Below are positions 8,912 to 29,298 of a stretch of DNA of 40,468 nt, one piece after another. Within the stretch, counting starts at the first letter, position 1. Each line of letters begins with the position of its first letter. This stretch comes from Flavobacteriaceae bacterium (lineage in GTDB: Bacteria; Bacteroidota; Bacteroidia; Flavobacteriales; Flavobacteriaceae): contig JAQWHT010000049.1 of assembly GCA_029249225.1 (NCBI GenBank), forward strand, positions 1-40,468, read 5' to 3'. The position numbers and the translations under genes were made by a program. Below the pieces are notes generated by a model. That model was not told the origin of the DNA. It saw only the letters and a list, made by a program, of their open reading frames with translations, and searched no databases.

Positions 8912-8950
8912 TGACAATTTGACATTAATTGAGTCTGGCAGTACTTTTGC
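8912..8950 (+). promoter_or_regulatory. grpE-dnaJ promoter with paired TGNCA half-sites
   Basis: Two TGACA half-sites (8912-8916 and 8920-8924, 3 bp apart) are followed after 11 bp by TGGCAG-N5-TTGCA (8936-8951), with GG and GC separated by 10 bp as in sigma-54 -24/-12 promoters. The same bases also fit the primary sigma factor consensus: TTTG at 8918-8921, a 20-bp spacer and TACTTTTG at 8942-8949. Sequence alone cannot decide between them. The half-site layout recurs upstream of dnaK. Confidence 0.6.
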
Positions 8951-8972
8951 ATAACTAATAAAAAAAAATTTA

Positions 8973-9512
8973 ATGGCGACTAAAGGAGCAAAAACAACAA
9001 AGAAAAAAACCACTGATCCAAAGAAACAAGCAAAAAAAACGTCTAAAGGCTCAAACTTAGAAACTAAAATTGAAGAGCTCAACCATTCGTTAGAACAGGA
9101 GAAAGAGAAGTTTTTAAGACTATTTGCTGAATTTGAAAATTTCAAAAAGCGCACATCAAAAGAACGTTTGGAGTTATTTAAAACTGCCAACCAGGAAGTA
9201 ATAAGTTCCCTGATACCAGTTCTGGATGATTTTAATCGAGCAAATCAACAAATCGAAAAAGGAGCTGAAAGTATTGATGTTGATGGATTTAAACTAATCT
9301 ATAACAAATTTTTTGAAGTTTTAAAGTCCAGTGGATTGAATTCTACAACAGCTAAAATTGGAGATGCTTTTGACGCAGAATATCATGAAGCAATTACCCA
9401 AATACCGGCACCTACTGAGGCTGACAAAGGAAAAATAATAGACATAGTTGAAACCGGATACCAACTGGGAGACCGGATTATTCGTTATCCAAAAGTGGTC
9501 GTAGGCCAATAA
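8973..9512 (+). CDS. grpE: Nucleotide exchange factor GrpE
   Basis: A 179-aa GrpE. The N-terminal 40 residues are lysine- and threonine-rich and disordered, then comes the long coiled coil (KIEELNHSLEQEKEKFLRLFAEFENFKKRT) and the C-terminal beta domain with DAFDAEYHEAITQIPAP and DRIIRYPKVVVGQ, all standard for GrpE. The homodimer releases ADP from DnaK in the cytoplasm and can act as a thermosensor. It lies 3 bp before dnaJ, so the two are one operon, while dnaK is far away at 27.4 kb. The start at 8973 gives a 20-bp leader after the promoter region. Confidence 0.96.
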   Translation: MATKGAKTTKKKTTDPKKQAKKTSKGSNLETKIEELNHSLEQEKEKFLRLFAEFENFKKRTSKERLELFKTANQEVISSLIPVLDDFNRANQQIEKGAESIDVDGFKLIYNKFFEVLKSSGLNSTTAKIGDAFDAEYHEAITQIPAPTEADKGKIIDIVETGYQLGDRIIRYPKVVVGQ

Positions 9513-9515
9513 CTT

Positions 9516-10631
9516 ATGAAACAAGATTATTACGAAATTTTAGGTGTTTCTAAAAATGCCAGTGCTTCTGAGATAAAGAAAGCCTACCGAAAAAAAGCGA
9601 TCCAATTTCATCCTGACAAAAATCCTGATGATAAGAAGGCTGAAGCCAATTTTAAAAAGGCCGCTGAAGCCTATGAAATTTTGGGTAATGAGGAGAAGCG
9701 TTCCAAATACGATCAATATGGTCATGCTGCTTTTGAAGGTGGTCAAGGTTTTGGTGGCGGTAGTATGAATATGGACGATATTTTTAGCCAATTTGGTGAT
9801 ATTTTTGGCAGTGCATTTGGTGGCGGTGGATTTGGTTCCGGAGGTTTTGGCGGAGGTCAAAGACGATCTCAAGGGTCAAATATGCGAATTCGTGTAAAGC
9901 TGACACTTGAGGAAATAGCTAAAGGTGTCGAAAAAAAAATAAAAGTTCCACGTAAAGTTCAAGCTCCCGGAGTACAGTATGGAACATGTTCGGTATGTAA
10001 TGGTGCAGGACAAGTGATGAAAATCACCAATACGATTTTAGGAAGAATGCAAACCTCAGCTGTTTGTTCGAGTTGTAACGGTAGTGGTCAAAACTTGTTA
10101 AATAGACCTCCAGGTTCAGACGCTAACGGAATGATCAAAAGAGAGGAGACCGTTTCTATCAAAATTCCTGCTGGTGTTGAAGAGGGCATGCAATTAAAGG
10201 TAAGTGGTAAAGGAAATGAGGCTCCTGCCAACGGAATTTCAGGAGACCTTTTAGTGTTAATTGAGGAACTACCTCACGAGGTTTTTGTCCGAGAGTCAAA
10301 CCATTTACATTATGACTTGTATGTAAGTATTTCTGAAGCCTCACTCGGGGTTTCAAAAGAGCTGAACCTTCTAGATGGAAAGGCCAGAATCAAACTTGAA
10401 CCTGGAATACAATCTGGTAAAACACTCCGACTTAGGGGGAAGGGTTTGTCTACTGTTAACGGTTATGGGACAGGTGACTTATTAGTTCATGTGAATGTTT
10501 GGACACCTAAAAAGTTAAACAAAGAGCAATATCAATTTTTTGAAAAAATGCTTGAAGACCCTAATTTCATTCCAAAACCAGAAAAATCTGATAAATCTTT
10601 TTTTGAAAAAGTAAAGGATATGTTTGCATAA
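9516..10631 (+). CDS. dnaJ: Chaperone DnaJ with a reduced zinc domain
   Basis: A 371-aa J-protein: J domain (residues 1-70, HPD at 32-34), Gly/Phe region (about 75-117), then the client-binding domains. It hands unfolded proteins to DnaK and stimulates its ATPase. Standard DnaJ has four CxxCxGxG motifs forming two zinc centres. Here only two are present: CSVCNGAG (C158, C161) and CSSCNGSG (C184, C187), which correspond to motifs 2 and 3 (zinc centre II). Motif 1 is replaced by [13 protein letters not shown], and motif 4 by [15 protein letters not shown], so zinc centre I is gone without a frameshift. I recall a similar form in other flavobacterial DnaJ proteins, so it is probably a lineage trait. 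Two terminators follow the gene. Confidence 0.95.
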
Positions 10632-11614: not shown

Positions 11615-12778
11615 ATGACTCAAATTTTATTGATTGAAGACGAAGAGCCAATACGAAGAGTAATGGTTCGCATATTAACTGAAGAGAGTTCCTCTTATGA
11701 GATTACTGAAGCGATAGATGGAAAAGAAGGTTTGTCAAAACTTTCTAAATCATCTTTTGACCTCGTTTTATGTGACATTAAAATGCCAAAAATGGATGGT
11801 ATTGAAGTTTTACAAAAAACCAGAGACAAAGGAATTTTCGTTCCTTTTATAATGCTTACTGGCCACGGTAACGTGGAAACTGCTGTAGAAGCTATGAAAT
11901 TAGGTGCGTATGATTTTATTGCGAAACCCCCAGATTTGAATAGGCTCCTTACCGCTGTTCGTCATGCTATAGAAAATAAGACATTAAGAAAAGAAAATTT
12001 AAAATTAAAGCGTAAAGTAGCACAGAAGTATACTATCATAGGTGAAAGTGACCCCATAGTGAAAATGAAAGAAATGATTTCTAAGGTTGCTCCTACTGAA
12101 GCAAGAGTGCTAATCACTGGAGAAAATGGTACGGGTAAAGAGTTAGTTGCACATCAATTACATCAGCAGAGTGAGCGAAGTAAAGAGAATTTTATTGAGG
12201 TCAATTGTGCTGCAATTCCTTCAGAATTAATTGAAAGTGAACTTTTTGGACATGTTAAAGGGGCATTTACATCAGCGGTGAAAGATCGTTCTGGTAAATT
12301 TGAAGCAGCAAACAAAGGAACACTATTTTTAGATGAGATTGCTGATATGAGTTTGGCTGCCCAAGCTAAAGTTCTTAGAGCTTTACAAGAGAATAAAATC
12401 CAAAGGGTAGGTAATGAAAAAGACATCAAGGTTGATGTTAGAGTTATAGCAGCAACAAATAAGAACCTAAGTCAAGAGATTAAAGAAGGTCGTTTTAGAG
12501 AGGATCTATACCATCGACTCGCCGTCATCATGATTCACGTTCCTGCACTCGAAAATCGTAAAAAGGATATTCCACTTCTTGTTTCCCATTTTGTTGATGT
12601 ACTATCCAAAGAGCAAGGGTTAGAGAAGAAAACCTTTAGCGAAGGAGCTCAGGCAAGGTTAAGTAGCTATCCATGGACTGGAAATGTAAGAGAGCTTAGA
12701 AATGTGGTTGAGCGGTTATTGATTTTAGGTGAAAATCCTATCAGTTCTGATGATATCATTCAATTTGCACCAAAATAA
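11615..12778 (+). CDS. NtrC-type sigma-54 response regulator without DNA-binding domain
   Basis: A 387-aa protein: receiver domain (1-120, phosphoacceptor D54 in CDIKMPKMDG), linker helix, then AAA+ sigma-54 activator domain (about 138-375) with Walker A GENGTGKE (169-176), the L1 loop GAFTSA (216-221), Walker B TLFLDE (236-241) and sensor II WTGNVRELRN (354-363). NtrC-family proteins end with a Fis-type helix-turn-helix; this one stops about 15 residues after the AAA+ domain, so it cannot bind enhancer DNA in the usual way. The L1 loop also has Ser for Gly (GAFTGA is the norm). The first ATG of the frame is at 11513, inside mscS; 11615 is the start that gives an intact receiver (MTQILLIEDEEP). 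No histidine kinase is adjacent. FlgR of Helicobacter shows that such proteins can work from solution. Confidence 0.92.
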   Translation: MTQILLIEDEEPIRRVMVRILTEESSSYEITEAIDGKEGLSKLSKSSFDLVLCDIKMPKMDGIEVLQKTRDKGIFVPFIMLTGHGNVETAVEAMKLGAYDFIAKPPDLNRLLTAVRHAIENKTLRKENLKLKRKVAQKYTIIGESDPIVKMKEMISKVAPTEARVLITGENGTGKELVAHQLHQQSERSKENFIEVNCAAIPSELIESELFGHVKGAFTSAVKDRSGKFEAANKGTLFLDEIADMSLAAQAKVLRALQENKIQRVGNEKDIKVDVRVIAATNKNLSQEIKEGRFREDLYHRLAVIMIHVPALENRKKDIPLLVSHFVDVLSKEQGLEKKTFSEGAQARLSSYPWTGNVRELRNVVERLLILGENPISSDDIIQFAPK

Positions 12779-27318: not shown

Positions 27319-27360
27319 CTGCCAAGCTGTCAGTATATGCTTCATGGCACAATGCTTGAC
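27319..27360 (+). promoter_or_regulatory. dnaK promoter region with paired TGNCA half-sites and -24/-12-like element
   Basis: TGCCA and TGTCA (27320-27324, 27328-27332, 3 bp apart, within the imperfect palindrome CTGCCA-AGC-TGTCAG) are followed after 12 bp by TGGCAC-N5-TTGAC (27345-27360). GG and GA are 10 bp apart; a canonical sigma-54 promoter would have GC. No TAnnTTTG element is present in this stretch, unlike at grpE. The element ends 30 bp before the ATG. The half-site pair and spacing match the grpE upstream region. Confidence 0.55.
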
Positions 27361-27390: not shown

Positions 27391-29298
27391 ATGAGTAAAA
27401 TAATTGGAATTGATTTAGGAACTACAAATTCATGTGTTTCCGTAATGGAAGGTAATGAACCTGTTGTAATCCCAAATGCTGAAGGTAAAAGAACAACACC
27501 TTCTGTTATTGCTTTTGTAGAAGGAGGAGAAATCAAGGTTGGTGACCCAGCTAAACGACAAGCTGTTACGAACCCCACTAAAACCATTGCTTCTGTCAAA
27601 AGATTTATGGGAAATAAATTCTCTGAGTCTTCAAAAGAAGTTAAAAATGTAGCCTATAAAGTTGTTAAAGGAGATAACGATACGCCGCGCGTTGATATTG
27701 ATGGTCGTTTATACACACCACAAGAATTGTCAGCGATGATTCTTCAAAAAATGAAAAAAACCGCAGAAGATTATTTGGGGCAGGACGTGAGTGAAGCAGT
27801 AATTACTGTTCCTGCTTACTTTAATGATTCTCAGCGTCAAGCTACCAAAGAGGCAGGAGAGATTTCAGGTTTAAAAGTACAACGTATTATTAACGAGCCA
27901 ACTGCTGCAGCATTAGCTTATGGTTTAGACAAAGGAGGTAAAGATCAAAAGATTGCAGTTTATGACCTTGGAGGAGGTACATTTGATATTTCCATACTAG
28001 AGTTAGGAGATGGTGTTTTTGAGGTGTTGTCTACAAATGGTGACACTCATTTAGGAGGAGATGACTTTGATCAAGTAATTATTGATTTTTTAGCGGATAA
28101 ATTTATTAAGGACGAAGGAATTGATCTTAGAAAAGACCCAATGGCCTTACAACGTCTGAAAGAAGCAGCTGAAAAAGCTAAAATTGAACTTTCATCTTCT
28201 ACACAAACTGAAATCAATCTTCCCTACATTACAGCAACTGAATCAGGCCCTAAACACTTGGTTACTCCACTTACTCGTGCAAATTTTGAGCAACTAGCAG
28301 ATGAATTGGTAAAACGCTCTATGGCACCTGTTAAAAAAGCTTTAGACGATGCAGGTTTGTCAAAATCAGATATAGATGAAGTGATTCTTGTCGGTGGTTC
28401 TACGCGTATCCCTGTGATTCAAGAAGAAGTAGAAAAATTCTTTGGTAAAAAACCATCTAAAGGGGTTAATCCTGACGAGGTGGTTGCTATCGGTGCCGCT
28501 ATCCAAGGAGGTGTATTAACTGGAGATGTGAAAGACGTCTTACTATTAGATGTTACACCGCTTTCATTGGGAATAGAAACAATGGGAGGCGTAATGACTA
28601 AGCTCATTGAATCTAACACCACTATACCAACTAAGAAATCGCAAACATTTTCAACTGCAGCAGACAATCAACCCTCAGTTGAAATTCACGTGCTTCAGGG
28701 CGAGCGTTCAATGGCAACAGACAACAAAACCATAGGACGTTTTCATTTAGATGGAATTCCACCGGCTCAGCGAGGAACACCTCAAATTGAAGTAACTTTT
28801 GATATTGATGCTAATGGAATCATTAAAGTAAGTGCCTTGGACAAAGCGACTAACAAGTCACAAAACATTCGCATTGAAGCTTCTTCAGGATTAACAGATG
28901 AAGAAATCGAAAAGATGAAGCAAGAAGCAGAAGCTAACGCAGATGCTGATCAGAAAGTAAAAGAACAAGTAGATAAACTCAACAGTGCCGATCAGATGAT
29001 TTTTCAAACTGAAAAGCAGTTGACTGAATTTGGAGAGAAACTATCTGATGACAAAAAAGCTCCTATAGAGGCTGCTCTTGCAGATTTGAAAAAAGCTCAC
29101 GAATCAAAAGATCTGGATGCTATTGACAAGGCGCTTGAGACAATCAATGAAGCTTGGAAAAATGCCTCTGAGGAAATGTATAAAGCTCAAGCAGAAGCGG
29201 GTGGTGCTGAACAAGCAGCACAACCTCAACCCGATGCTTCGGCAGACGCTTCAGGAGGTGATGATGTCCAAGATGTTGACTTTGAAGAAGTAAAATAA
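27391..29298 (+). CDS. dnaK: Molecular chaperone DnaK (Hsp70)
   Basis: A 635-aa Hsp70. The nucleotide-binding domain starts [16 protein letters not shown] and carries [35 protein letters not shown] and [15 protein letters not shown]; the substrate-binding domain follows the linker [19 protein letters not shown]; the lid ends in a low-complexity tail with the conserved terminus DVDFEEVK. It binds unfolded proteins under ATP control with DnaJ and GrpE. An in-frame ATG exists at 27337, but it would overlap the promoter element and add 18 unrelated residues; 27391 ([10 protein letters not shown]) is the standard start. The gene stands alone with a terminator behind it. Confidence 0.98.

Follow-up and report, generated by a model that had tools for sequence, protein, structure and literature searches.

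Why do grpE-dnaJ and dnaK of a Flavobacteriaceae bacterium carry nearly the same upstream layout, two TGNCA half-sites followed by a -24/-12-like box, and what protein and sigma factor would read it? The two transcription units lie 18 kb apart in the window, which is the whole stretch of DNA analyzed here: 40,468 nucleotides that make up all of contig C61 in the draft genome G000 (2.09 Mb, 90% complete). A first-pass annotation had proposed that one regulator serves the whole DnaK machine, in a genome region that it described as free of CIRCE elements. On direct reading, all of the letters and spacings that it gave for the half-sites and boxes of both genes were correct, apart from the end of the grpE box, which falls at 8951 instead of 8950. 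The dnaK start reported by the ORF finder, 27337, falls within the dnaK promoter. The features of the window are listed in Table 1. Below, the pair is the palindromic half-site arrangement TGNCANNNTGNCA, and the strict box is TGGCA-N6-TTG.

Table 1. Chaperone genes, candidate regulatory sites, and a nearby activator-like gene in the window.
Feature	Position	Strand	Basis and remarks
TGACA-N3-TGACA pair, candidate activator site (TGNCANNNTGNCA) of grpE	8912..8924	+	Sequence: TGACA 8912-8916, N3, TGACA 8920-8924, then 11 bp to the box; center ~-44 from predicted transcription start
grpE-dnaJ -24/-12-like sigma-54 promoter TGGCAG-N5-TTGCA	8936..8951	+	Sequence: TGGCAG 8936-8941, N5, TTGCA 8947-8951; predicted start ~8962
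grpE	8973..9512	+	PF01025 match, E 7.9e-39
dnaJ, second gene of the unit after grpE	9516..10631	+	PF00226 and PF01556
EBP A (enhancer-binding protein, EBP), receiver and sigma-54-activator AAA+ domain	11615..12778	+	Pfam; GAFTSA motif read in L128
TGCCA-N3-TGTCA pair, candidate activator site (TGNCANNNTGNCA) of dnaK	27320..27332	+	Sequence: TGCCA 27320-27324, N3, TGTCA 27328-27332, then 12 bp to the box; center ~-45
dnaK -24/-12-like sigma-54 promoter TGGCAC-N5-TTGAC	27345..27360	+	Sequence: TGGCAC 27345-27350, N5, TTGAC 27356-27360; predicted start ~27371
dnaK	27391..29298	+	TIGR02350 match, E 2.0e-295; start MSKIIGID set by conservation

Shared control predicts that the pair is conserved in related genomes, the point on which the first-pass annotation had staked its reading, and this is what we found. 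We searched 60 genomes: G000, 36 congeners, and 23 further members of its order. At dnaK (50 loci, 49 read by script), the pair was present in 35, the box in 44, and both close together in 31; these were all 31 of the script-read loci from the genus and none of the others. Both elements are also present at L120, a same-genus locus read by hand. At grpE (50 loci), the corresponding counts were 37, 44, and 32, and within the genus 29 of 30 loci had pair and box, the thirtieth (L020) starting at a contig edge. The flanks of the same-genus dnaK and grpE promoters drift while pair and box stay. The common layout at grpE-dnaJ and dnaK, conserved in this way throughout the genus, supports the idea of one regulator for the DnaK machine.

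The layout extends to other chaperone genes, among them those that had been named for checking. The pair was found at 24 of 30 groES loci (21 of 21 in the genus) and at 20 of the 26 htpG loci that were read out of 30 (17 of 17 in the genus, where the htpG box is TGGTA-N6-TTG). For clpB, 22 of 30 loci were read and a single one had the exact pair; all 16 genus members read have TGGAA-N6-TTG together with the consensus TGNCA-N3-AGTCA, a one-base variant of the pair, at the same distance. The hsp20 gene of the source genome has the layout as well. Across 67 genus loci (12 dnaK, 17 grpE, 21 groES, and 17 htpG; left out were L020 and L283, which lie at contig edges, L282, which lacks a gene start, and the loci fetched separately from the genomes), every one had a pair within 130 bp upstream, and seven more pairs occurred in the remaining 239 kb. 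Outside the genus, the exact pair was present at 4 of 18 dnaK, 8 of 20 grpE, 3 of 9 groES, and 3 of 9 htpG loci; it is often degenerate there, and the box is kept more often than the exact pair.

By eye, the groES pair of seven loci (L158, L161, L164, L165, L167, L170, and L202) sits inside a terminator-like hairpin, TGCCAGC ... GCTGGC, followed by a T-rich stretch; six of the seven keep a single TGNCA half-site 12-13 bp before the box. Because the pair overlaps this hairpin, its conservation at groES in several named Flavobacteriaceae may have another cause.

Which sigma factor reads the box? The first-pass annotation had described it as sigma-54-like while leaving the sigma factor uncertain; the conserved -24 TGG and the distribution of RpoN are in keeping with sigma-54. 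RpoN (PF04552) was found in 59 of the 60 genomes, including G000, and was absent from one that is 57% complete. HrcA was detected in none of the 60, by a search that was positive in 7 of 14 control genomes. TGG occupies a fixed place in 31 of 31 dnaK, 28 of 30 grpE, 21 of 21 groES, 17 of 17 htpG, and 16 of 16 clpB rows from the genus, a count in which the anchor pattern itself demands TGG. Anchoring of both the TGG and the TG column succeeded for 113 of 115 genus promoters; all 31 dnaK and 28 of 30 grpE promoters were anchored on the strict box. The -12 element has GC at grpE and GA at dnaK of this genome; genus-wide, the promoters of dnaK, grpE, and htpG keep TTG and vary in the base after it, so the element differs from the textbook GC. 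TGGCATGTTTTTGGCT (GG-N10-GC) occurs in nine groES promoters from genomes of 0.5-0.6 Mb, which are described below. The groES promoters of the genus have CTG or ATG at -12 instead of TTG, with TGGCA kept in 21 of 21.

Mapped transcription starts in Flavobacterium psychrophilum carry a sigma-54 motif, SM4, at groESL, lon, dnaK, grpE-dnaJ, htpG, skp, and clpB, the first five of these falling into one expression cluster (PMC9723704). In the same article, hsp20 does not appear in the table of sigma-54-motif starts, SM4 also serves gliding and other genes, and the text consulted names blood agar and some other conditions as inducing SM4 promoters, without mention of heat. Predictions by promoter matrices likewise place enriched sigma-54 promoters at GroEL, GroES, GrpE, DnaJ, and DnaK across the class Flavobacteriia (PMC12316311, which cites its reference 80 for sigma-54-dependent GrpE/GroES).

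The first-pass annotation had also noted that the same bases at grpE form a good primary-sigma promoter. This holds for the source genome, where grpE reads TACTTTTG in register, but not for the genus: TAnnTTTG is in register in only 10 of 28 grpE promoters and in none of 85 dnaK, groES, htpG, and clpB promoters. We therefore rejected the primary-sigma reading of the grpE box. Its broader form would have the primary sigma factor read all of these promoters through TAnnTTTG, a classical activator or repressor occupy the pair, and the -24/-12 likeness be fortuitous. This form was already disfavored by these counts, and with sigma-54-type starts at the same genes in F. psychrophilum (PMC9723704), we consider it very improbable.

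We then asked how specific the pair is to heat-shock genes. The window holds three pairs against 0.68 expected, a number reached by 3 of 100 shuffles, and the 2.09-Mb genome holds 20 against 10 for a reversed control pattern. At this genome density, a pair occurs in a given 200-bp upstream region with a probability of ~0.0018. Both groES and htpG, which had been named for checking beforehand, have an upstream pair, for which 0.0018 squared gives ~3e-6. A scripted test of groES, htpG, and hsp20 (with the pair) and lon (without) gave 3 of 4 and P ~2e-8, a value that is optimistic because hsp20 and lon were noticed via their pairs. The exact pair of lon lies 3' of its box within the coding sequence, and for that reason lon was scored as lacking an upstream pair.

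Six of the 20 pairs belong to heat-shock genes, five of them upstream (grpE, dnaK, groES, hsp20, and htpG) and one within the beginning of lon; the remaining 14 lie within reading frames or beside genes of other kinds. Adding the box sharpens this division. A relaxed box, TGG-N8-YTG, follows 8-45 bp downstream of the pair (on either strand) at exactly five of the 20, all of them heat-shock genes, with gaps of 11 bp at grpE, 12 at dnaK, 11 at hsp20, 12 at htpG, and 33 at groES; the strict box is found near the pair at grpE and dnaK only. A sequence-only profile of the whole promoter rose above noise at dnaK and grpE alone, both of which were training rows. It ranked groES, htpG, and hsp20 among the next matches at E 0.15-0.27, where they were inseparable from others, so the membership of these three genes rests on the exact pair pattern. 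The htpG gene of this genome is split over contigs, with its start on C67 and the rest on C52; the 82-residue start has no Pfam match and was assigned by 54-95% identity to the htpG of relatives. The clpB promoter of this genome is unreadable because the clpB match spans profile positions 215-852 only.

At lon (L069, contig C48 of G000), a TGGCATAACTATTG box lies ~100 bp 5' of the ATG, and pair-like sites follow downstream, one of them inside the coding sequence. These sites are a possible candidate for a downstream enhancer; a few EBP sites have been placed 40-70 bp downstream of sigma-54 promoters (PMC4641369).

The distance between pair and box carries a second signal. Across 134 sites, the gaps fall at 11-13, 22-23, 32-35, 42-46, 53, 64-65, and 73-76 bp; 85 of 88 dnaK, grpE, and htpG sites have the shortest of these, and 42 of 45 groES sites have gaps of 22-46 bp. 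Of the 48 gaps above 16 bp, all but one (L327, gap 46) deviate by at most 2 bp from 12+10.5k, a tolerance that takes in somewhat under half of all positions. The vector length R was 0.864 at a period of 10.5, 0.845 at 10, and 0.808 at 11. These counts use the relaxed box pattern and include related genomes, which are not independent; the six far clusters count as separate placements. We read the stepping by about one helical turn as the mark of an activator held on a single helix face. The earlier description of half-sites directly adjoining the box thus applies to grpE, dnaK, htpG, and hsp20 of this genome, but not to groES, where the pair is two turns further up (gap 33).

By these gaps, the pairs at dnaK, grpE, htpG, and groES as a rule lie closer than the usual location of an upstream activating site, 80-150 bp upstream. 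A palindromic, conserved, and sigma-54-linked site is nevertheless what we find, both within the genus and at groES of the 0.5-0.6-Mb genomes; judged from these alignments, the pair would act like an upstream activating site at an unusual place. The placement invites the alternative that the promoters are indeed sigma-54 promoters, but that an unrelated protein, a repressor or accessory activator, occupies the pair and the EBP works from another site or from solution. Centered near -44, the pair abuts the polymerase, whereas the usual EBP site is described as lying at least 100 bp upstream of the promoter (PMC4641369). The same source also reports that, for the largest share of sigma-54 promoters, the closest EBP site is no more than 100 nt away, and phasing over several turns suits an activator that touches the polymerase better than it suits a repressor.

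If an activator binds the pair, which one is it? A search with EBP B (E<=1e-20) detected two EBPs in this genome, EBP A in the window and EBP B outside it (G000:C56:1829-3106). EBP A would be the dedicated activator by position: its gene lies ~1 kb downstream of dnaJ and is near grpE in relatives too. A Pfam search found no HTH or other DNA-binding domain in it, and GAFTSA stands in place of GAFTGA in the six A-type loci readable by script (10 EBP loci were fetched, of which three gave no pattern match and one was of another type). No second EBP was detected in genomes of 0.5-0.6 Mb. On these three grounds, EBP A was rejected as the site-binding regulator, and that it is the dedicated activator strikes us as improbable in the extreme. 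Its existence does set a precedent here for an EBP without a recognizable DNA-binding domain, as the alternative of an unrelated protein on the pair would have it.

EBP B has the domains expected of a site-binding activator of the NtrC/PspF family: an AAA+ domain (PF00158, E 1.3e-65), a linker of ~119 residues, and a C-terminal Fis-type HTH (PF02954, residues 392-428, E 8.5e-12), with no receiver. EBP B, its G051 counterpart, and all 30 aligned relatives have GAFTGA. The EBP B gene is flanked by a MiaB-like gene and lptE and precedes groES by ~1.7 kb. Of the 55 genomes with groES, 45 have a strong PF00158 match no more than 4 kb from it (coordinates compared by hand). Among the best 54 of 80 named EBP B loci, 20 have groES inside the fetched stretch, 18 of them flavobacterial and two from Saprospiraceae; the best-matching named relatives of EBP B are flavobacterial and up to 73% identical. 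F. psychrophilum shows a similar neighborhood, with a "probable sigma-54-dependent transcriptional regulator" and LptE at tags 0733/0732 and GroES at 0729, although the activator of its SM4 promoters was left open among three PF00158 proteins (PMC9723704).

Reduced genomes connect EBP B and the pair by co-occurrence. Across the order, EBP B has a match at E<=1e-20, in a few cases a weak one, in 290 of 296 genomes; the other six comprise two drafts of 1.5-1.6 Mb and four genomes of 0.2-0.3 Mb. Each of 49 genomes of 0.5-0.6 Mb, which belong to one genus and by size and order look like Blattabacterium-like insect symbionts, has exactly one EBP B match, at E 1e-138 or better. In nine of the ten whose groES promoter we read, an exact pair precedes the box by 42-46 bp, and no other exact pair occurs in 80 kb; the tenth has a pair with one mismatch. 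Because EBP B is the sole EBP detected in these 49 genomes, and nine of the ten read keep the groES pair, we infer that it is the activator of these promoters. G051 (345 kb), whose one EBP is B-type, keeps the pair at grpE and groES; no exact pair was found at its dnaK or clpB, and no strict box at its grpE. In families f8 and f11, where EBP B is again the only EBP detected, none of the four groES promoters read has the exact pair, and three of the four have a one-mismatch pair. In family f16, with genomes of 0.2-0.3 Mb, G246 gave a weak EBP B match and G258, G294, G310, and G330 gave none.

These observations also bear on the alternative in which an unrelated protein binds the pair. The B-only families f8 and f11 fit it, and the retention of both EBP B and the groES pair in single-EBP genomes of 0.5-0.6 Mb speaks against it; weighing this together with the placement and phasing of the sites, we regard the alternative as unlikely. 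From sequence comparison, it seems to us quite probable that EBP B binds the pair and that the pair serves as the upstream activating site for a chaperone regulon under sigma-54.

The mechanism that we propose for EBP B is as follows. RNA polymerase carrying RpoN would occupy the TGGCA-N6-TTG box in a closed complex, and EBP B would bind the palindromic pair always from the same helix face, in many cases directly next to the polymerase. By spending ATP, EBP B would then open the complex at grpE-dnaJ, dnaK, groES-groEL, htpG, and hsp20, and probably at clpB and lon too. Heat or unfolded protein may activate EBP B, and a helix in its linker, highly conserved among the 30 aligned relatives, may take part in the sensing. 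In the predicted structure of a relative of EBP B, L158 (mean pLDDT 79), the AAA+ domain and HTH are well predicted, the linker helix spans residues 279-309, and residues 328-373 fall below pLDDT 50; no sensor mechanism is evident from this prediction, in which the helix is a candidate for regulation and nothing more.

The proposed regulon can be compared with other systems. HrcA/CIRCE and RpoH control heat shock at the same target genes, but the HrcA regulon differs from this one in that its regulator was found in 0 of the 60 genomes. PspF-type EBPs consist of an AAA+ domain and a Fis-type HTH without a receiver and act on the sigma-54 promoters of a stress system. EBP B has the same domain set, but differs from them in the long linker with its conserved helix and in its proposed sites, which are beside the promoter in one-turn steps. 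If confirmed, promoter-adjacent sites that shift in full turns of the helix would represent a compact way for an EBP to act.

Chaperone genes of flavobacteria were already known to have sigma-54 promoters; to this the present analysis adds a candidate activator and its candidate site. The SM4 promoters of F. psychrophilum resemble those described here in sigma type and in largely the same genes, but in the text consulted that work neither describes a site for an activator nor says which protein the activator is (PMC9723704). The predicted Flavobacteriia-wide sigma-54 chaperone cluster involves chaperone genes found here too, with no upstream site or activator given for them in the text consulted (PMC12316311). 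Our literature search, which covered titles and abstract openings, with subscription journals mostly outside its scope, returned no activator or site assigned to these promoters. Now that an activator candidate and a 13-bp site can be named, chaperone control in a large bacterial group becomes directly testable.

We also put forward a wider proposal, tentatively, as one that we judge about as apt to fail as to hold, and perhaps slightly more so. RpoN and one dedicated activator, the EBP encoded in the miaB-lptE-groESL neighborhood, would take the place of RpoH or HrcA as master heat-shock system in flavobacteria, and possibly in Bacteroidota as a whole; the activator would work from the helix face next to the polymerase, and its conserved inter-domain helix may let it sense folding stress. 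RpoN retention is reported to be unusual in insect endosymbionts, and in Walczuchella it was linked to nitrogen (PMC3971599). Chaperone control, rather than nitrogen, would explain RpoN in the reduced insect symbionts of this order and offers a concrete reason for its retention in the Blattabacterium-like genomes. Beyond Bacteroidota, five relatives of EBP B come from Gemmatimonadota (L206-L210) and are 33-38% identical to it over nearly the full length.
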